From a virus, in IMG/VR virus record IMGVR_UViG_3300043446_001708, positions 1-35,965 of that record: a stretch of 35,965 nucleotides of DNA; one strand, 5' to 3'. A model generated the notes under the pieces. It was not told the DNA's origin, ran no database searches, and worked only from the letters and a program-made list of their open reading frames with translations. Positions 1 through 34,485 of the stretch are shown here, one piece after another. Both the position numbers and the translations under genes were made by a program. Each line of letters opens with the position of its first letter. The first letter of the stretch is position 1.

Positions 1-910
1 CACCAGTGGGAAGTTCTAACGCGACAACACCAGTGTTCAGCGTGGCGTTATCTTGCAAAGTGATTTTATAGATGAGCGACTTCTTACCCGCATATCCTGC
101 TGCATACACAGCGTTCTGCCCTGTCGCCACGCCAACCCAACGGAACGATTGGTCGGTTGGAGTGACCACATCTGCTGGACTTCCTCCACTGCTGATAGAC
201 CGCAATTTGTAATCGTGCGCTCCGAACATATAGTTCTTCGCGAACCCAAGCATGTAGTACGAATCGCTGGAGTTGACAAACTTCGATGTCGAAATAGTCC
301 CAGGCGCAGACGCTGGAGTAATCGTGCGAACACCATCACCACTGAAACCCACGAACACAGTCGTGCCATCAGTTGCCATCGACAACACAGTCGTTGCAGA
401 AGGTCCACCCGTACAAGTAGACCAAGTAGGACTCGCAGCAAACGGGTCAGTCGTGTAGCGGATAGCAGTGTCAAGACCCGCATACACATAGCCGTCATTA
501 ATCAACAAATGCTGAGTCGTTGATGCACTGGACAGCGACAACTTAGTGTCATTAAGTAGCGTCAGTTTGCCACGATTCCAAACATTGACACCCTTGCTGG
601 CATAGAAACGGTAGTCGCTTGACTCCGCAACATCGGCGTAGCGTTGCCCCGCCCCACGATGCCATGACACCTCGCCACGCCGCCACAAACCACCAGGGTT
701 AATAGCCGCCTCACCAGGCGCAGTAGACGAATCTTGCGAATCACGCACCCTTTGTTCAAACCCTCGAACAAACTGTCCAGATTTCTGGTCCACCATGTAG
801 GGTCGCCCATTGATAGCAACAGGGAAAACATGGGGAACAAGTTCCGTTGATGCGATACCCGTATAGAACGGGGGTGTGTCAACGAATGGGATTGTGAAAG
901 TGAGGGACAT
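1..910 (-). CDS. Tail protein, N-terminal part (gene continues across the window join)
   Basis: The reverse-strand frame opens at ATG 908-910 and runs off position 1 with no stop. Read on from 35965 the frame is kept (303 codons plus one base here, two bases there), giving a 535-residue protein that ends at 35268. This part has an N-terminal stretch with the segment GGLWRRGEVSWHRGAGQ, then short repeated beta-strand units (VYAGLDTAIRYTTDP, TTVFVGFSGDGVRTI, NAVYAAGYAGKKSLIYKI) that look like propeller blades. Such proteins are common near the end of late operons of actinophages with short tails; a tail-hub, tail-needle or receptor-contact role is inferred from that position. It starts 3 bp after the connector-like gene at 913-1800 and is probably translated with it. 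Confidence 0.75.
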   Translation of the reverse strand, partial: MSLTFTIPFVDTPPFYTGIASTELVPHVFPVAINGRPYMVDQKSGQFVRGFEQRVRDSQDSSTAPGEAAINPGGLWRRGEVSWHRGAGQRYADVAESSDYRFYASKGVNVWNRGKLTLLNDTKLSLSSASTTQHLLINDGYVYAGLDTAIRYTTDPFAASPTWSTCTGGPSATTVLSMATDGTTVFVGFSGDGVRTITPASAPGTISTSKFVNSSDSYYMLGFAKNYMFGAHDYKLRSISSGGSPADVVTPTDQSFRWVGVATGQNAVYAAGYAGKKSLIYKITLQDNATLNTGVVALELPTG

Positions 911-22649: not shown

Positions 22650-22667
22650 TGTTAGGGACACCTAACA
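22650..22667. repeat. Palindrome TGTTAGG-N4-CCTAACA, copy 1
   Basis: Perfect 7-bp arms with a GACA centre lie 64 bp upstream of the CRP-type site of promoter P1. A second copy with the same arms but a different centre (CGTA) is at 25019-25036, 2 bp from the CRP-type site of P4. It is probably a protein-binding site. Confidence 0.6.
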
Positions 22668-22731: not shown

Positions 22732-22786
22732 TGTGACAAGAGTCACATGAAAAAGACTTCCAATGTCCTAAGACTTGTGTTACGCT
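22732..22786 (+). promoter_or_regulatory. Promoter P1 with CRP-type site, drives the SprT-like gene
   Basis: The palindrome TGTGACAAGAGTCACA (22732-22747) is followed by a 10-bp gap, then a -35 TTCCAA (22758-22763, the weakest of the five promoters), a 17-bp spacer and TACGCT (22781-22786). The spacer includes TGTCCTAAGAC, a variant of the dispersed palindrome. The leader has a GGTGAC/GTCACC hairpin (22798-22814) directly before the CAGAAAGGGA ribosome-binding site. Confidence 0.75.
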
Positions 22787-22833
22787 TGCTTCAGCAAGGT
22801 GACAGAGGGTCACCACAACAGAAAGGGACAGAA

Positions 22834-23604
22834 GTGGAAACACTAGAGAAAGAGGGCGCGAGCCTCGCGCCAATCGTGGAGGCGTTGCAGAGTGCCTACG
22901 CGATGCTCTCAGAGCATACGGAGAAAGTGACAGGCAAGGCACTCCCGCCCGCTGTCATGGTGGTGAAGCGAGACTCCCGCGCATGGGGTCATATCACGGT
23001 ACGCCCCGCATGGCAGAGTGAGCGAGAGGAACTAGACCTAGAGTATGGCTACGGTCATATCGCGGTAACGCTCGGTCTGGGTCATAAGACAGTAACGGAT
23101 TATCACCACGAGATTATGGTTTCGGGCGAGAACTTGGCGCGTGGCGCGGTGGCAGTATTCGGCACTCTTGCGCACGAGGCGGCGCACGCCGCGAACATCT
23201 CTAACGGCGTGAGAGATGTAGACCTAAACGGACGACATAACAAGAGGTTCAAGGAGACAGCCGAACACTTGTTCGGTTTGGAGATTTCAGAGTATGCACC
23301 TAATCATTGGGCAGGATGGACTAAGACGGAAGTGCCGTTTGCCTGTCGTAAGACATGGAAAGAGGCTATCGCTCTCATTGATGAGGCGATGAGAACGCAC
23401 GCAGGGAACCCCCCTACTAGCGGTGGTGGTTCTCGCGGTGGCGGTATCTCTATCGGTGGCGGTATGCCGATAGGAGGGCGCAATAAGAACGGAATAAAAG
23501 CGGAGTGCGGGTGCGGGTCAATCATTCGCACGAGCCAAAAGGCTCTAGATAAGGGGATTATCTGCGGAGAGTGCGAACAGGTGTTCGTGGGGGAGGGGCG
23601 ATAA
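22834..23604 (+). CDS. SprT-like zinc metalloprotease with C-terminal zinc ribbon
   Basis: A 256-residue protein from GTG 22834, chosen because CAGAAAGGGA sits just upstream and because an earlier in-frame ATG lies inside promoter P1. The catalytic helix is TLAHEAAHAAN (HEAAH, 114-118), with a third ligand likely at H135 in GRHNKRFKETAE, the SprT/Spartan arrangement. After a Gly-rich linker (196-216), C225, C227, C244 and C247 form a zinc ribbon, as in SprT-family proteins. Spartan relatives cut proteins cross-linked to DNA; a role in clearing phage or host DNA-protein complexes, or host takeover, is inferred. It is the first gene of the forward arm. Confidence 0.82.
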   Translation: METLEKEGASLAPIVEALQSAYAMLSEHTEKVTGKALPPAVMVVKRDSRAWGHITVRPAWQSEREELDLEYGYGHIAVTLGLGHKTVTDYHHEIMVSGENLARGAVAVFGTLAHEAAHAANISNGVRDVDLNGRHNKRFKETAEHLFGLEISEYAPNHWAGWTKTEVPFACRKTWKEAIALIDEAMRTHAGNPPTSGGGSRGGGISIGGGMPIGGRNKNGIKAECGCGSIIRTSQKALDKGIICGECEQVFVGEGR

Positions 23605-23619
23605 GGGAACAGATGTTCG
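23574..23619. promoter_or_regulatory. Two LexA-type boxes at the end of the SprT-like gene
   Basis: CGAACAGGTGTTCG (23574-23587, inside the last codons) and GGAACAGATGTTCG (23606-23619, just past the stop) fit the Gram-positive/actinobacterial SOS box CGAAC-N4-GTTCG; the second has one mismatch at its first base. They are spaced 32 bp centre to centre and lie about 100 bp upstream of promoter P2's -35. Confidence 0.55.
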
Positions 23620-23659
23620 GGGTGAGTGGCACGGCTCAGGGTTCGACCCCCTGACACCC
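23620..23659 (+). other. 40-nt tRNA-minihelix-like element, copy A
   Basis: A GGGTG/CACCC outer stem encloses a 12-nt segment beginning AGTGGCAC and a canonical T-arm: stem CAGGG/CCCTG with the 7-nt loop TTCGACC. The layout is identical to copy B at 26446-26485, with the T-stem changed on both sides. There is no anticodon arm, so it is not a complete tRNA. It lies in the 3' region of the SprT-like message, before a 7-bp stem hairpin. Confidence 0.6.
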
Positions 23660-23663
23660 GCTA

Positions 23664-23681
23664 GCCTGTCGTAAGACAGGC
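23664..23681. repeat. Palindrome GCCTGTC-GTAA-GACAGGC
   Basis: Perfect 7-bp arms lie around GTAA; it contains an exact GTCGTAAGAC. As RNA it would be a hairpin with a GNRA-type loop. It lies 3 bp before the CRP-type site of P2, so it could be either an operator or a transcript 3' end without a U-tail. Confidence 0.65.
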
Positions 23682-23684
23682 GAG

Positions 23685-23739
23685 TGTGACAAGAGTCACA
23701 TACAAAACACTTGACAAGGGGTCGGGGTTCCGATACTCT
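23685..23739 (+). promoter_or_regulatory. Promoter P2 with CRP-type site
   Basis: TGTGACAAGAGTCACA (23685-23700), a 10-bp gap, a perfect TTGACA (23711-23716), a 17-bp spacer and TACTCT (23734-23739). The leader begins with a GTAG-GCAA-CTAC hairpin (23746-23757) followed at once by the CAGAAAGGGA site of the gene at 23771. Confidence 0.82.
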
Positions 23740-23770
23740 GTCAAGGTAGGCAACTACAGAAAGGGACAGT

Positions 23771-24031
23771 ATGAAGGTAGTCAGCAAGAGGGAAGCGCAA
23801 CAAGTGTTCACTATCTTTCGTAAGCAATACGAGAGCATGGGATACGACACGAGCGAGGCTAGTCTTGTCGAAGGTTGGTCAGAGGGCGGTCACCCTGCTA
23901 TATGTTGGGAGGGTGGTGACGCGCCGTATGAGTGGGCGTACTCGTGGGATAATGACGCGACGAAGGGTGTCGCTTTCTGTGAACCGTACTACTCTTGTGT
24001 CTTGGTCATCTATCCTGCGTGGGTAGCGTAA
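23771..24031 (+). CDS. Unknown small protein of the forward arm
   Basis: An 86-residue acidic protein with many aromatic residues (MKVVSKREAQQVFTIFRKQY; AICWEGGDAPYEWAYSWDND). It has a helical start and a probably beta-rich end (YYSCVLVIYPAWVA), no zinc motif and no membrane segment. AGAAAGGGACAG precedes the ATG by a few bases, and the gene has its own promoter P2. The shape (short helix, then a Trp-rich sheet) is common among small phage proteins that bind host targets, but no function is assigned. Its stop codon lies in the loop of a 6-bp hairpin (24023-24037). Confidence 0.7.
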   Translation: MKVVSKREAQQVFTIFRKQYESMGYDTSEASLVEGWSEGGHPAICWEGGDAPYEWAYSWDNDATKGVAFCEPYYSCVLVIYPAWVA

Positions 24032-24104
24032 CGCTACTCTCCCCCACTCCCTTTAGGGGTGCGCTCGTCATAGGGCAAGTGGGGACTACTGTCATAAGAC
24101 AGTA
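24023..24104 (+). other. Three consecutive stem-loops after the 86-residue gene
   Basis: First, GTAGCG-TAA-CGCTAC (24023-24037) with the gene's stop codon as its loop. Second, a 7-bp CCCCACT/AGTGGGG stem (24042-24084) closing a 29-nt interior. Third, the perfect palindrome TACTGTCATAAGACAGTA (24087-24104), a GTCATAAGAC variant of the dispersed motif. There is no U-tract. The gene at 24126 follows without a promoter that I can see, so these may tune read-through or processing. Confidence 0.5.
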
Positions 24105-24125
24105 ACAACAGAAAGGGAAAACATA

Positions 24126-24479
24126 ATGGAGAAAAAGGTACGACCCGCATATCGGGAACCGTGGAAGCATGGGGCGAAGGCATACGCCGAAGCGGACACG
24201 CCCGAAGCATTACGCGAAGGCATGAAGCGAAAAAGGAATATGCAATATGTTCATCTCAATCACGAGGGGTTTGGGCATATGCCATGCGCAAAGTGTGGGA
24301 TAGCAGTAGGCGACCCATACCCTGTGAACGAAGGCGATACTTGTCTTAGGACAGACACTTGGGCGACAGGCAAATATTACCCCAGCAAGAAGGCACTCGT
24401 CGCAATGCACTACTATTGCTCGTGGGGCGCGTTGTTGGAAGATGTCTTTCGTCTTGGAAGGGTACTCTATTTCGGGTAG
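24126..24479 (+). CDS. Unknown protein with possible zinc site
   Basis: A 117-residue protein: a basic N-terminus (MEKKVRPAYREPWKHGAKAY), a helical part with TPEALREGMKRKR, then FGHMPCAKCGIAVGDPYPVN with a CxxC pair, a later C (GDTC) and an HYYC segment. Together these could bind one zinc ion. The ribosome-binding site CAGAAAGGGA lies 10 bases before the ATG. No own promoter was found, so it is probably transcribed from P2 through the stem-loop region before it. The function is unknown. Confidence 0.68.
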   Translation: MEKKVRPAYREPWKHGAKAYAEADTPEALREGMKRKRNMQYVHLNHEGFGHMPCAKCGIAVGDPYPVNEGDTCLRTDTWATGKYYPSKKALVAMHYYCSWGALLEDVFRLGRVLYFG

Positions 24480-24492
24480 TAAGACAGACACC

Positions 24493-24539
24493 CCCTGTCC
24501 GTAGTGTAAGGCTACCGACTGCTCACGACAGAGACAGGG
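24493..24539 (+). other. Structured element closed by CCCTGTC/GACAGGG
   Basis: A 7-bp outer stem (24493-24499 with 24533-24539) encloses a GTAG/CTAC hairpin (24501-24515) and about 17 unpaired bases. It lies in the 3' region of the 117-residue gene, just before a LexA-type box and P3. It resembles the minihelix elements in position but lacks a T-loop. Confidence 0.4.
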
Positions 24540-24544
24540 ACTAG

Positions 24545-24558
24545 CGAACATATGTTCG
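24545..24558. promoter_or_regulatory. LexA-type box CGAACATATGTTCG
   Basis: A perfect 14-bp palindrome matching CGAAC-N4-GTTCG, four bases upstream of the CRP-type site of P3. It is the best-conserved SOS-type box of the window. Confidence 0.6.
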
Positions 24559-24562
24559 TGAG

Positions 24563-24617
24563 TGTGACAAGAGTCACATAAATAATACTTGACAAACTAT
24601 CGGGGGCGTGTTACGCT
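24563..24617 (+). promoter_or_regulatory. Promoter P3 with CRP-type site
   Basis: TGTGACAAGAGTCACA (24563-24578), a 10-bp gap, TTGACA (24589-24594), a 17-bp spacer and TACGCT (24612-24617). The leader has a GTAG/CTAC hairpin (24625-24638) close to the expected start of the RNA and abutting the CAGAAAGGGA site. Confidence 0.82.
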
Positions 24618-24654
24618 TGCGGGAGTAGGTCAAACTACAGAAAGGGAAAACAAA

Positions 24655-24999
24655 ATGAAACACACAAAAGAAGAAATAGAGAACGCTCGGAAACGGCTCG
24701 AAGAAGTAATCTTCTACGGTCTGCCCGAAGGAAGGCGACCAACTATCTACACTATCTGTCGGAAAGTTTCGCCAAGCGGGGCGACGAGGTGGCTGTCGGT
24801 CAAGGTCGTAGGACAGGACAGAGAACTAGTAGATGTGACCTACTATGTCGGGGTCGTCCTCGGTTTGCAGATACAAGACACAGGGCAACGCGCTGTAAAG
24901 GTTGTCGGCGGAGGCATGGACATGGGCTACCACTTGGCTCACTCTATTATCGGAACGCTGTGCGGACATAGCAAAAAGTTTCGTCACGAGTGGGCGTGA
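24655..24999 (+). CDS. Conserved phage protein with GGGMDMGYH motif
   Basis: A 114-residue protein. After a charged helix (TKEEIENARKRLEEVI) come TIYTICRKVSPSGATRWLSV, a beta part with DVTYYVGVVLGLQ, and the motif KVVGGGMDMGYHLAHSI. The same order (S-x-S-G-x-x-R, then G-x-G-M-D-M-G-x-H) recurs in many uncharacterised phage proteins from diverse hosts, to my recollection; its function is unknown. The start was chosen from CAGAAAGGGA nine bases upstream; an earlier frame start lies inside P3. This is a single gene with its own promoter. Confidence 0.78.
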   Translation: MKHTKEEIENARKRLEEVIFYGLPEGRRPTIYTICRKVSPSGATRWLSVKVVGQDRELVDVTYYVGVVLGLQIQDTGQRAVKVVGGGMDMGYHLAHSIIGTLCGHSKKFRHEWA

Positions 25000-25000
25000 G

Positions 25001-25036
25001 GTCGTAAGACAGGAACAATGTTAGGCGTACCTAACA
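25001..25036. repeat. GTCGTAAGAC copy plus palindrome TGTTAGG-N4-CCTAACA, copy 2
   Basis: GTCGTAAGAC (25001-25010) begins directly after the stop of the previous gene, and the 7-4-7 palindrome (25019-25036, centre CGTA) ends 2 bp before the CRP-type site of P4. The dense packing of three palindromes ahead of one promoter suggests combined regulation. Confidence 0.6.
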
Positions 25037-25038
25037 GG

Positions 25039-25093
25039 TGTGCCAAGAGTCACATAGAAAGAACTTGACACGATAAAAGAACCGTGTTACAGT
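25039..25093 (+). promoter_or_regulatory. Promoter P4 with variant CRP-type site
   Basis: TGTGCCAAGAGTCACA (25039-25054, one change in the left arm), a 10-bp gap, TTGACA (25065-25070), a 17-bp spacer and TACAGT (25088-25093, the best -10 of the set). The leader has a perfect GAGGG-GAAA-CCCTC hairpin (25106-25119) with a GNRA loop. Confidence 0.8.
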
Positions 25094-25136
25094 AACAACA
25101 ACAACGAGGGGAAACCCTCACAACGAAAGGGAAATA

Positions 25137-25703
25137 ATGAAAAAGGCAGACATCGAAAGGTGTATCCAGACGAGAACATTCGTTCGGAAGGAAACAGGGT
25201 ACGGGCAATCGTACACCCTCCTTCCCATCGAAATCACCACCAAAAAGACCAACAGGCACGGCAGCGGCGTAAGCGCGGTCAAGTGCGAAATATGGTCGGT
25301 CTACAAGGGGGAGGCGACACCTCAAATCCACCACGCGACAGGGCAAATCTGCACGGAGGTCTACGGTCTGAACGAAATCTCAGGCGAGCAGACAGCGTGG
25401 TTTGATAGCAAGTGTCACGGTCTTACGACAGAGAACATCGTCGAACTTGTCCGCAAGGCGCACGAGGAGAAAGAAGACAGGGCAATCCAAGCGGAAATCT
25501 ATCGCACCCGCACTATCGCCACAGGCGATGACCTTATGACCCGCTTGCAGGCTCTCACAGGGATTACAGCGCGACGAGATGTCCACAACCGCAGAGGCTA
25601 CGAGACAGACATCAGCAAGGTGTCAATCACAGTAGACGAACTTGCAACGCTGGTCGAACTGTTGGAGAGCGCGGGTCTTATGGCAGGAAAGGTAGGTGCG
25701 TGA
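25137..25703 (+). CDS. Unknown protein of the forward arm
   Basis: A 188-residue protein. Residues 1-90 look beta-rich (YGQSYTLLPIEITTKKTNRH; VSAVKCEIWSVYKGEATPQ), and residues 95-188 are helical (TENIVELVRKAHEEKEDRAI; VDELATLVELLESAGLMAG). There is no recognisable enzyme motif. The ribosome-binding site CGAAAGGGAAATA precedes the ATG. It is the largest unknown of this arm and the first of three consecutive genes under P4, since 25705 and 25908 follow within a few bases. The helical second half could be a dimerisation or partner-binding domain. Confidence 0.72.
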   Translation: MKKADIERCIQTRTFVRKETGYGQSYTLLPIEITTKKTNRHGSGVSAVKCEIWSVYKGEATPQIHHATGQICTEVYGLNEISGEQTAWFDSKCHGLTTENIVELVRKAHEEKEDRAIQAEIYRTRTIATGDDLMTRLQALTGITARRDVHNRRGYETDISKVSITVDELATLVELLESAGLMAGKVGA

Positions 25704-25704
25704 C

Positions 25705-25911
25705 ATGAAACAGTATTTCAGGACTGTTTATCTTGGCGACAGAGAAAACCCAAGTCGCTACCACATTCGGCAAGGCGACGGTTGGGCATTGGTGCGGACA
25801 AAAGGTAATCGTATGGCGCGATACCAAACGAACGGCGGGTGGGCAGGATACAAACTGCCAGCACACATTCGTCAGTTTGTCGAAGCAACAACACACGAGG
25901 TCACGGCATGA
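25705..25911 (+). CDS. Small basic unknown protein
   Basis: A 68-residue protein starting one base after the previous stop; AGGTG lies eight bases before the ATG. It has a compact beta pattern with Arg/Lys and aromatic residues (YFRTVYLGDRENPSRYHIRQ; GWALVRTKGNRMARYQTNGG) and a short helix at the end. Such small WW- or SH3-like sheets often bind nucleic acid or partner proteins, but this is only a resemblance. Its stop overlaps the next gene's start (ATGA), so both are likely to be made together. Confidence 0.6.
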   Translation: MKQYFRTVYLGDRENPSRYHIRQGDGWALVRTKGNRMARYQTNGGWAGYKLPAHIRQFVEATTHEVTA

Positions 25912-26162
25912 ACAGCAACCTTAGATACCGCCGACAAGTGGTGGCACAGAAAGCGATTGCTGACAGGCTTGCCCGCAAGAAAGCGCGACAGGCACGACAA
26001 ACCCGCCGACAGGCGCGAGGATACACAGGGCGTAGGCTTGCGGTCATCGCGTTGAGTCTCATCACGGGGATTTCGGCAGACCCGTCACACCCGTTCGGTG
26101 TTCTCATCGCAGGCGGGTGTCTCGTTCTTGCCTTGTTCACTATCGGAGTAGCGGAGAGGTAG
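25908..26162 (+). CDS. Small membrane protein with basic N-terminus
   Basis: An 84-residue protein. Residues 1-43 are extremely Arg/Lys/Gln-rich (RLARKKARQARQTRRQARG); residues 44-82 are hydrophobic with two short segments (LAVIALSLITGISA and VLIAGGCLVLALFTIGVA) joined by a DPSHPFG turn. It is probably an inner-membrane hairpin protein with a cytoplasmic basic arm. Its ATG overlaps the preceding stop (ATGA). Membrane-active early proteins can exclude other phages or change the host membrane potential; that is speculation here. It lies away from the lysis genes, so a holin role is less likely. Confidence 0.6.
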   Translation: MNSNLRYRRQVVAQKAIADRLARKKARQARQTRRQARGYTGRRLAVIALSLITGISADPSHPFGVLIAGGCLVLALFTIGVAER

Positions 26163-26183
26163 TCATGTCTTACGGCAGGGATA

Positions 26184-26212
26184 CGAACACTTGTTCTCCG
26201 AACATCTGTTCG
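26184..26212. promoter_or_regulatory. Tandem LexA-type boxes
   Basis: CGAACACTTGTTCT (26184-26197, one mismatch) and CGAACATCTGTTCG (26199-26212, perfect arms) lie 15 bp apart centre to centre, about 27 bp upstream of the CRP-type site of P5. Tandem spacing suggests cooperative binding. Confidence 0.55.
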
Positions 26213-26238
26213 TGTCTTGCGGGACATGGCTTGGAGGG

Positions 26239-26293
26239 TGTGACAAGAGTCACAAAAGAAATACTTGACAAGTCTCTACGAGTGTGTTACGCT
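26239..26293 (+). promoter_or_regulatory. Promoter P5 with CRP-type site
   Basis: TGTGACAAGAGTCACA (26239-26254), a 10-bp gap, TTGACA (26265-26270), a 17-bp spacer and TACGCT (26288-26293). The leader has a GTGGG-GAAA-TCCAC hairpin (26301-26314, one G-U closing pair) before the CAGAAAGGGA site. Confidence 0.82.
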
Positions 26294-26334: not shown

Positions 26335-26439
26335 ATGACACTACAAGGATACAACCGCATGGCGCGGGCGTTCTTGGAAAAGCGGGTCGAAGCACGACCA
26401 ACGACCAAGAGGAAACGCACGAGCAAGCGGGTCAAATAA
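26335..26439 (+). CDS. 34-residue Arg/Lys-rich peptide
   Basis: Starting at the ATG five bases after CAGAAAGGGA, this codes for a 34-residue peptide: a short helix (TLQGYNRMARAFLEKRVEAR) and a strongly basic end (KRKRTSKRVK). It directly follows promoter P5 and its leader hairpin, so it should be well expressed, which argues for a real peptide rather than a chance frame. It could bind nucleic acid or an acidic host protein. It is followed by minihelix copy B. It might also act as a leader whose translation controls the gene at 26533. Confidence 0.55.
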   Translation: MTLQGYNRMARAFLEKRVEARPTTKRKRTSKRVK

Positions 26440-26445
26440 TCCGCA

Positions 26446-26485
26446 GGGTGAGTGGCACACATCGGGGTTCGAGTCTCCGACACCC
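26446..26485 (+). other. 40-nt tRNA-minihelix-like element, copy B
   Basis: It has the same plan as copy A: GGGTG/CACCC, a 12-nt segment starting AGTGGCAC, and a T-arm with stem CGGGG/CTCCG (one G-U) and loop TTCGAGT, with a single A before the closing strand. The stem pairs differ from copy A but pairing is kept, which points to selection on RNA shape. It lies 7 bp after the stop of the 34-residue peptide. Confidence 0.6.
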
Positions 26486-28376: not shown

Positions 28377-28420
28377 GAGCCTGCCGTGTCTGTTCCTTCC
28401 CAGACATGGCAGGCTCTTTT
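28377..28420 (+). terminator. Terminator ending the forward arm
   Basis: A GAGCCTGCC/GGCAGGCTC stem extended by TGTCTG/CAGACA, with an 8-base loop and then TTTT. It lies between converging genes. The U-tract is on the forward strand, so it mainly stops forward-arm transcription; its 3' edge overlaps the last bases of the whiB-like gene. Confidence 0.85.
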
Positions 28421-28682
28421 ATTTGTAGTCGTAGGTGTCGGAGAGGTTGGCGCGTTCGCGCGGATTTAGACCCCCGAACACCCCAAACCGATACGGCAAC
28501 TCTTTCTCTATCTGCATCGCCTCATCTAAACATTGCTGTCTTACGACACATACTTCACAGAACCGTTTAGCCTGCTGATAGGGGCGGTCTGTCACATCGC
28601 CTACAATCTCAGGGAAGAACACTTCTAATGGTGCGCGGAGACATTCTGCTTTATCTGTCCATGCGTGAGGACTTTGCCCCAT
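28419..28682 (-). CDS. whiB: WhiB-family iron-sulphur transcription regulator
   Basis: An 87-residue protein with the four WhiB cysteines C14, C42, C45 and C51 (spacing 27-2-5) that hold a [4Fe-4S] cluster, followed by the turn GVFGGLNPRER (usually G-V/I-W-G-G) and a short C-terminus. WhiB proteins bind the principal sigma factor and occur in actinobacteria and their phages; phage copies can interfere with host WhiB proteins. The start at 28682 overlaps the previous stop (TAATG) with AAGGTG upstream. The codons for V-V-R-Q include an exact GTCGTAAGAC. It lies last in its operon, against the bidirectional boundary. Confidence 0.9.
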   Translation of the reverse strand: MGQSPHAWTDKAECLRAPLEVFFPEIVGDVTDRPYQQAKRFCEVCVVRQQCLDEAMQIEKELPYRFGVFGGLNPRERANLSDTYDYK

Positions 28683-28930
28683 TACACACCTTGCGGTCTG
28701 CGCCACAAAGCGGGAGAGAAGTTTGCCTCTACTGCTTTACGGGTGGCGACATCTCCATAGACGCGCATGATGAACAGGCAGGGGTCTGCCCCGTCGCTCC
28801 ACAGGTCGTCCTCTGTGGAGGTGGACGGGACACCATCGTGTGTGTAACACACGGACGGACTAATCCAACTGTTCCGCAAACCGATTTCGTACCATTTGTC
28901 GAAATCAAAGTCTGCTATCGGGTCGGACAT
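28682..28930 (-). CDS. Conserved small actinophage protein
   Basis: An 82-residue acidic protein: DFDFDKWYEIGLRNSWISPS, VCYTHDGVPSTSTEDDLWSD, then GADPCLFIMRVYGDVATRKA and a final SPALWRRPQGV. The C-x-T-H-D-G-x-P-x-T...D-P-C-x-x-x-x-R pattern is familiar from many actinophage genomes as a protein of unknown function. The two Cys and the His might bind metal. It is TAATG-coupled to the SSB gene before it and to WhiB after it, so it may belong to the same regulatory or replication stage. Confidence 0.72.
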   Translation of the reverse strand: MSDPIADFDFDKWYEIGLRNSWISPSVCYTHDGVPSTSTEDDLWSDGADPCLFIMRVYGDVATRKAVEANFSPALWRRPQGV

Positions 28931-29498: not shown

Positions 29499-30095
29499 TC
29501 AATGTTTCTTGCAGTTTTTCTTTGCCCATTTCTTGGACGGTTTATATGTTCCTTGTGTGCCGTCTTCTTTCTGTCCGCAAGGGTTGCCGACAATGTGGGC
29601 AGCGCACCCCCACCCGAAGTATCCTCTGCCGTACTTGTCGTACCAGAACTTTGCTGGCACGCCTTTCTGTCTGGCTACCTTAGGGTCTAGGTATTTCCAT
29701 GTGCGGAACCCGAACTTGGCGATACGATTAGCGACCACGATTTGTTGCACCTTTGTTGCGCGGTCAGGGCTGGCGGCGTAATCTTCCCCACCCCATCTTT
29801 CCCATGTGCCACGCTGTTTTGAGTGGAATGTTCCTGCTGTCATTATTCCTAGACCACCCGCGAACTTGCCTGTGTTTGCCCAATCGCTGTTTGTTTCGCA
29901 TCGAGCGAGGGCTTCCCAATACGCAAGCGGTGCGGTGCTTGGGTCAAGCATCTGTTTATAGAGTTCAAGTTTTGCCCTTTCTTCCCTGCGTTGTTGCAGG
30001 GTGATTATTCGCGCATTACTTTCTTCTTCCGCTAATGCGCTTGACGGAAATGCTAGAAGGGATAGGACGATTGAGGTTGCAATAAGTTTTCGCAT
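29499..30095 (-). CDS. Secreted Rpf-like lysozyme / transglycosylase
   Basis: A 198-residue protein with a clear Sec signal peptide (MRKLIATSIVLSLLAFPSSA, likely cut near residue 22). It has a short coiled coil (30-50) and a resuscitation-promoting-factor-like domain: LAYWEALARCETNSDWANTG, with the catalytic Glu at 67 next to Cys66, then GGLGIMTAGTF, WGGEDYAASPDRATKVQQI and VANRIAKFG. Rpf proteins cut peptidoglycan glycan strands. The C-terminus is basic with Cys residues. AAAGGAG precedes the ATG. Secretion by the host would let it weaken the wall from outside, alongside the M15 endolysin. Confidence 0.88.
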   Translation of the reverse strand: MRKLIATSIVLSLLAFPSSALAEEESNARIITLQQRREERAKLELYKQMLDPSTAPLAYWEALARCETNSDWANTGKFAGGLGIMTAGTFHSKQRGTWERWGGEDYAASPDRATKVQQIVVANRIAKFGFRTWKYLDPKVARQKGVPAKFWYDKYGRGYFGWGCAAHIVGNPCGQKEDGTQGTYKPSKKWAKKNCKKH

Positions 30096-34104: not shown

Positions 34105-34158
34105 TTCCTGTCCTTCCGTTAGGTTGTGTATCACTCTACAGAATAGGGGACAGGTGTG

Positions 34159-34485
34159 TCAAGGATTTAGAAAGAAAGTTTCTCGTACCATTCCGACGGG
34201 AATATGGAAAGGGTGGATGCCGTCGCCATCACAGATGGTCTGCCAGAGGGTCACATGCCCCCGCTTGCCACCCTTCTTCTCTTCTGGGACAAGGAAGCCG
34301 ACAGAGGTGATGATGTATTCGCCACCATCGCTGTAATCGTCCAGGTCAAGCCAGCCTCCAACGCCTGCGTGAGCGTCAGCCCACTTGACAAGTACCAACG
34401 GGTATTGGGTTTTAGGCGGCGCGGGATTTGGTTTGGATGGCTTCGATGGTTCGATTGATGGTTTCGATTGCTTCGATGAGGGCAT
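34159..34485 (-). CDS. Conserved phage protein of unknown function
   Basis: A 108-residue protein. After a low-complexity Ser/Lys/Pro start (PSSKQSKPSIEPSKPSKP) comes a compact domain: YPLVLVKWADAHAGVGGWLD, DYSDGGEYIITSVGFLVPE, GHVTLWQTICDGDGIHPFHI, PVGMVRETFFL. The V-K-W-x-D-A-H...S-V-G-F-L-V...G-H-V-T-L...P-x-G-M-V-R order recurs in many uncharacterised phage proteins. GGAGGAGGAAC lies directly before the ATG. The odd N-terminus arises because it overlaps another frame (34412-34555). Confidence 0.75.
   Translation of the reverse strand: MPSSKQSKPSIEPSKPSKPNPAPPKTQYPLVLVKWADAHAGVGGWLDLDDYSDGGEYIITSVGFLVPEEKKGGKRGHVTLWQTICDGDGIHPFHIPVGMVRETFFLNP

Follow-up and report, generated by a model that had tools for sequence, protein, structure and literature searches.

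Five promoters in the forward gene arm of an uncultured actinophage each carry, a short way upstream, a palindrome of the type recognised by CRP and GlxR in actinobacteria. This raises the question of which protein reads these palindromes and to what effect. The window (the whole stretch of DNA analysed) comprises 35,965 bases of a virus record, has 50.6% G+C and contains no tRNA genes. The same layout is shared by many related phages, which suggests that a whole gene arm is switched on via a master regulator of the host. We consider it likely that host CRP/GlxR activates the forward, probably early, arm of the phage through a standard cassette of site and promoter.

Sites and promoters of the forward arm

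The features concerned are:

22732..22747, plus strand: CRP-type palindrome copy 1 (TGTGACAAGAGTCACA)
22758..22786, plus strand: promoter 1, weak -35 TTCCAA, 17 bp, -10 TACGCT, before the SprT-like gene 22834-23604
23685..23700, plus strand: CRP-type palindrome copy 2
23711..23739, plus strand: promoter 2, TTGACA-17-TACTCT, before gene 23771-24031
24563..24578, plus strand: CRP-type palindrome copy 3
24589..24617, plus strand: promoter 3, TTGACA-17-TACGCT, before gene 24655-24999
25039..25054, plus strand: CRP-type palindrome copy 4 (TGTGCCAAGAGTCACA)
25065..25093, plus strand: promoter 4, TTGACA-17-TACAGT, before gene 25137-25703
26239..26254, plus strand: CRP-type palindrome copy 5
26265..26293, plus strand: promoter 5, TTGACA-17-TACGCT, before gene 26335-26439 and later genes to 28356
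28419..28706, minus strand: WhiB-family regulator gene (Pfam PF02467, E=5.5e-15), an actinophage marker
29499..30095, minus strand: transglycosylase-like (Rpf-type) gene (PF06737, E=2.5e-11)
34133..34162, minus strand: recombination-arm promoter, TTGACA-18-TAGAGT, without palindrome, listed for contrast

All five palindromes named in an earlier, sequence-only reading of this DNA are present on the plus strand, four as exact copies of TGTGACAAGAGTCACA and one with TGTGCC. The arms TGTGA-N6-TCACA are thus exact in four copies and match at 9/10 letters in the other, and the window holds no further arm-type palindrome at 9/10 or better. Elsewhere in the window nothing resembles TGTGACAAGAGTCACA within three mismatches; in shuffled windows, matches at up to three mismatches averaged 0.58 and never reached five. 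The spacing first described, a 10-bp gap, a -35, 17 bp and then a -10 (TAnnnT), is exact for all five copies. The claim that each -35 is strong holds for four promoters (TTGACA) and fails for the first, where the hexamer at 22758 is TTCCAA, with 3/6 matches to TTGACA. Two other perfect promoters, on the minus strand at 29502 and 34162, lack the palindrome. If transcription starts 7 nt beyond the -10, the centre of the palindrome is predicted at about -53.5, a position derived from the -10 and -35 and hence relative to a predicted start.

Several other elements were observed in the window and its relatives. A 40-nt intergenic element (GGGTGRCTGGCAGACATCGGGGTTCGAGTCCCCGACACCC) at 23620-23659 and 26446-26485 (plus strand) has the shape of a tRNA acceptor stem plus T-arm. 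It is also found in loci L073, L094, L027, L384-L390, L395 (phage Lika), L396 (phage Rope) and L397 (phage Predator), hence in actinophages that otherwise differ, some of them cultured phages of Mycobacterium and Streptomyces; phage Predator has three copies, with stems differing by paired changes. ARAGORN and Rfam gave no match for this element, which resembles a minimal RNase P substrate and is a possible mRNA processing signal. The LexA-box-like GAACANNTGTTC occurs seven times in the window (23263, 23575, 23607, 24546, 26185, 26200 and 34961; about 0.03 expected) and 26 times in 811 kb of relatives (0.8 expected), and some copies, such as that at 24546, abut a CRP-type site. The palindrome GTCNTAAGAC has 17 copies in the window, on both strands, against about 0.3 expected (23081, 23345, 23668, 24091, 25001, 26492, 28538, 30306, 32047, 33171 and others), often within CTGTC-NTAA-GACAG, a hairpin with a tetraloop. 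A third palindrome, of the TTAGGNNNNCCTAA type, precedes CRP-type sites 1 and 4, at 22652-22665 and 25021-25034. In loci L278, L282 and L283 the SprT-like gene has a different palindrome upstream, GGTGATATATAACGGATATATCA, which replaces the CRP-type site and precedes a TTTGACC/TACAAT-like promoter.

Recurrence and conservation in other phages

An IMG/VR scan with the gap fixed (TGTGA-N6-TCACA-N10-TTGACA) returned at least 120 stretches and at least 132 sites with many different centres. When TGTGAC-N4-GTCACA and TTGACA were instead paired at any gap from 0 to 30, the gap was 10 in 36 of the 90 pairs listed (binomial p about 6e-30), followed among these by gap 21 with 8 pairs and then a class of 5; loci fetched with gap 10 fixed were left out of these counts. 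From 76 loci of terminase relatives (72-82% identity), all promoters of the form TTGACA-16..18-TAnnnT were collected as a palindrome-blind set. The palindrome stood at exactly gap 10 in 44 of these 71 promoters (0.03 expected) and at another gap within 35 bp in a further 9, while six draws of permuted arms produced no gap-10 match. All 53 site-bearing promoters lie on one strand and are directed away from the packaging genes. The five-site layout is far more than chance. Gap 10 is dominant, and the small extra classes at 0, 20 and 21 lie about whole helical turns away, which points to a protein contacting RNA polymerase from one face. Site and promoter are thus helically phased, as expected of a CRP/GlxR-dependent promoter.

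The window has no DNA relative in the phage collection, which thus yielded no cultured phage of this design, and short promoter queries gave chance-level matches only. Gene-by-gene footprinting showed that a given promoter is not retained across orthologues of the forward-arm genes; the cassette is therefore tied to the arm and not to particular genes.

Judged by their gene content, the cassette carriers are actinophages. WhiB matches in the phage collection come nearly all from named phages of Mycobacterium, Microbacterium, Gordonia, Streptomyces, Mycolicibacterium and Tsukamurella, and the Rpf-type transglycosylase gene is a second pointer to an actinobacterial host. WhiB is present in 29/44 cassette records, many of them short fragments, versus 10/48 background records (p 2e-5), and in 28/40 carriers with other centres; it thus co-occurs with the cassette but is also a general actinophage marker. 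In 31/31 loci it lies on the strand opposite to the sites, about 2-7 kb past the nearest one, so that the arm with the cassette and the arm with WhiB run towards each other, as they do in the window. A small protein of no known family, encoded at 28682-28930 (minus strand) and overlapping the WhiB gene, has relatives in 29/68 cassette-bearing loci, nearly as many as WhiB.

Conservation within the site was followed over 140 distinct sites, for which at least 9/10 arm letters were required. The arms stay constant in relatives, mostly including the inner C/G, while the 4-bp centre drifts and its bases vary among copies even inside a single phage (mostly RAAN). Other prominent features of the 140 sites are purines, chiefly A, in the centre, a gap rich in A/T and a C ahead of the -35. 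The sequence-only reading took the inner C/G and the AAGA centre to be conserved, which is true within the window phage; in relatives the centre varies freely and differs between copies, so the identical AAGA of the window is local. The suggestion of a different regulator based on AAGA was dropped on this ground. A Rex operator (TTGTGAA-N4-TTCACAA) does not fit either: Rex-type sites require A/T inside the arms, and C/G occupies the inner positions in 5/5 window copies, with C at position 5 in 72% of the 140 sites. The centre is also oriented. Counted over distinct C-type sites, among which kinship is possible, A stands at position 8 in 47/58 and its mirror-position T in only 12. A symmetric dimer leaves this orientation unexplained, and it is the main loose end for the CRP reading.

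The protein that reads the site

TGTGA-N6-TCACA is the recognised CRP/GlxR motif in actinobacteria (PMC4218801; PMC7999487), and the inner G of the phage sites also appears in GTG(N)6GNCAC, the Crp motif of Streptomyces (PMC10033298). The predicted centre was at first thought unusual; it is in fact ordinary for actinobacteria, as CRPMt sites in Mycobacterium tuberculosis are concentrated between -60 and -40, and genes whose expression drops in the crp mutant carry them at -44.5, -54.5, -57.5 and -59.5 (PMC4117774). Compared with these M. tuberculosis values, a centre at -53.5 would fit the activator position for actinobacteria (-40 to -60).

No carrier record (0/44, many being fragments) encodes a Crp-type helix-turn-helix above the PF13545 cut-off. 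A scan of genomes for the full cassette gave only 18 places, two of them in actinobacterial MAGs, upstream of orthologous genes for a secreted 3D-domain protein. Both MAGs have a strong Crp-domain match. In the MAG analysed in full, the Crp protein scores 143 bits to M. tuberculosis CRP, and its recognition helix is near-identical (ASRERVNKSIAAF versus ASRETVNKALADF). Among small actinobacterial genomes in general, only part have a clear Crp domain. From the identity of the motif, the CRPMt positions and these MAGs, which combine the same layout with a CRPMt-like protein, we infer that CRP is the binding protein. The original proposal of host CRP/GlxR control of the arm thus gains from the conserved arms with drifting centres, the 10-bp phasing and the lack of a phage CRP; the reservations drawn from AAGA and from -53.5 do not stand.

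Under this proposal the five palindromes would be binding sites for host CRP/GlxR in an activating position. From about -53.5, a CRP dimer would touch RNA polymerase whose housekeeping sigma sits on TTGACA and TAnnnT, and the contact would raise transcription of five consecutive forward-arm units, probably early genes. Control by cAMP is less certain still: according to work cited in PMC4218801, cAMP raises the affinity of mycobacterial CRP only about 2-fold, so cyclic AMP need not be the switch. A bolder version, which we hold only tentatively and put somewhat below even chances, is that a wide range of actinophages share, by convergence or by descent, one cassette in which host CRP is a structural co-activator with a fixed -53.5 position and an oriented centre, and through which the forward arm reads the cAMP/energy state of the host at infection.

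Two further points weigh against CRP as a regulator acting in this way. A promoter with a consensus TTGACA and a fair -10 should have little need of an activator. The inner-C/G palindrome and the gap-10 layout are rare in host genomes, which speaks against a simple host-regulon picture: the exact palindrome occurs in 2/49 small actinobacterial genomes, and across the phylum it lies within 30 bp of TTGAC in 14/396 genomes, with gap 10 in only two. In Streptomyces-size genomes TGTGACTTGAGTCACA recurs with a gap of 14 to TTGAC, which is another geometry.

This contrast between phages, where the geometry is common, and hosts also favours a rival activator of the forward arm that recognises the TGTGA-N6-TCACA arms, either a host regulator other than CRP or a non-Crp protein of the phage itself. 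The orientation-dependent purine bias of the centre would suit such a protein, as would the fact that most forward-arm proteins are of no assignable family. Yet Pfam scans of the forward and right-arm proteins revealed no helix-turn-helix domain and no DNA-binding regulator besides WhiB, which is also the only regulator among the window protein families shared by carriers and sits on the opposite arm. At a WhiB-dependent promoter, WhiB would be expected to act at sigma on the -35 and not through a palindrome, and it is not known to bind palindromes. Rex as the other regulator would need A/T inside the arms, where C/G prevails in the phage sites. We regard this rival as unlikely, though the strongest of the three considered.

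Repression is less probable again, and we give it little credence. CRP or another protein at -53.5 would then hold strong promoters down until infection conditions change, in keeping with the high basal activity suggested by a consensus -35 in four of the five promoters and with the ability of CRPMt to repress at other positions (PMC4117774). The site lies upstream of the polymerase footprint, however, the gaps of 0, 10 and 20 keep step with the helix, which activation would predict, and in M. tuberculosis the crp mutant shows lower expression of genes whose sites lie at -44 to -60. It is very improbable that the palindrome is an RNA hairpin, a processing or termination signal of the upstream unit, and not a DNA element: its RNA folds as a 7-bp stem with a 4-nt loop (-8.8 kcal/mol, z -4.2) and most forward-arm sites are intergenic, but the arm sequence itself is conserved beyond pairing, the spacing to the -35 does not vary by even one base, no U-tract follows the palindrome, and other site classes lack the inner pair.

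Significance and comparison with known systems

If host CRP does drive these promoters, many environmental actinophages would place one gene arm, probably early, under a global host regulator, and the infection program could depend on the nutritional state of that host. With 140 distinct sites in the sample and one fixed distance, the layout also offers a clean natural data set for the contact between CRP and RNA polymerase, whose geometry in actinobacteria differs from the E. coli spacing rule, and the cassette may help to mark actinophage transcription units in metagenomes. Motif and type of position are already known; for CRP sites in actinophage promoters, and for their fixed, phage-wide deployment, no report was found in the literature searched, the coverage of which was incomplete.

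The CRPMt (Rv3676) promoters of M. tuberculosis, such as those of Rv1592c (-54.5) and PE22 (-44.5) (PMC4117774), share with the phage TGTGA-N6-TCACA upstream of a promoter at -44 to -60. Their expression falls without CRP, whereas the phage promoters are known here from sequence alone; and unlike them, the phage has five copies in one arm, a fixed 10-bp gap to a consensus -35, and phage genes downstream. The GlxR-activated ldhA gene of Corynebacterium glutamicum has the same motif as the phage sites, and a better match to it raises promoter activity (PMC7999487), although ldhA is a host metabolic gene with a single site. The class I and class II CRP promoters of E. coli resemble the phage promoters in having an activator palindrome upstream and steps of about one helical turn, but their centres lie at -61.5 or -41.5, as against about -53.5, with rare classes at -43.5 and -63.5, in the phages. 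Like the phage sites, the stoperators of mycobacteriophages (PMC9283540) are many copies of one regulator site per genome; they lack symmetry, bind a phage repressor and occur genome-wide, whereas the sites described here are palindromic, linked to promoters and confined to one arm.
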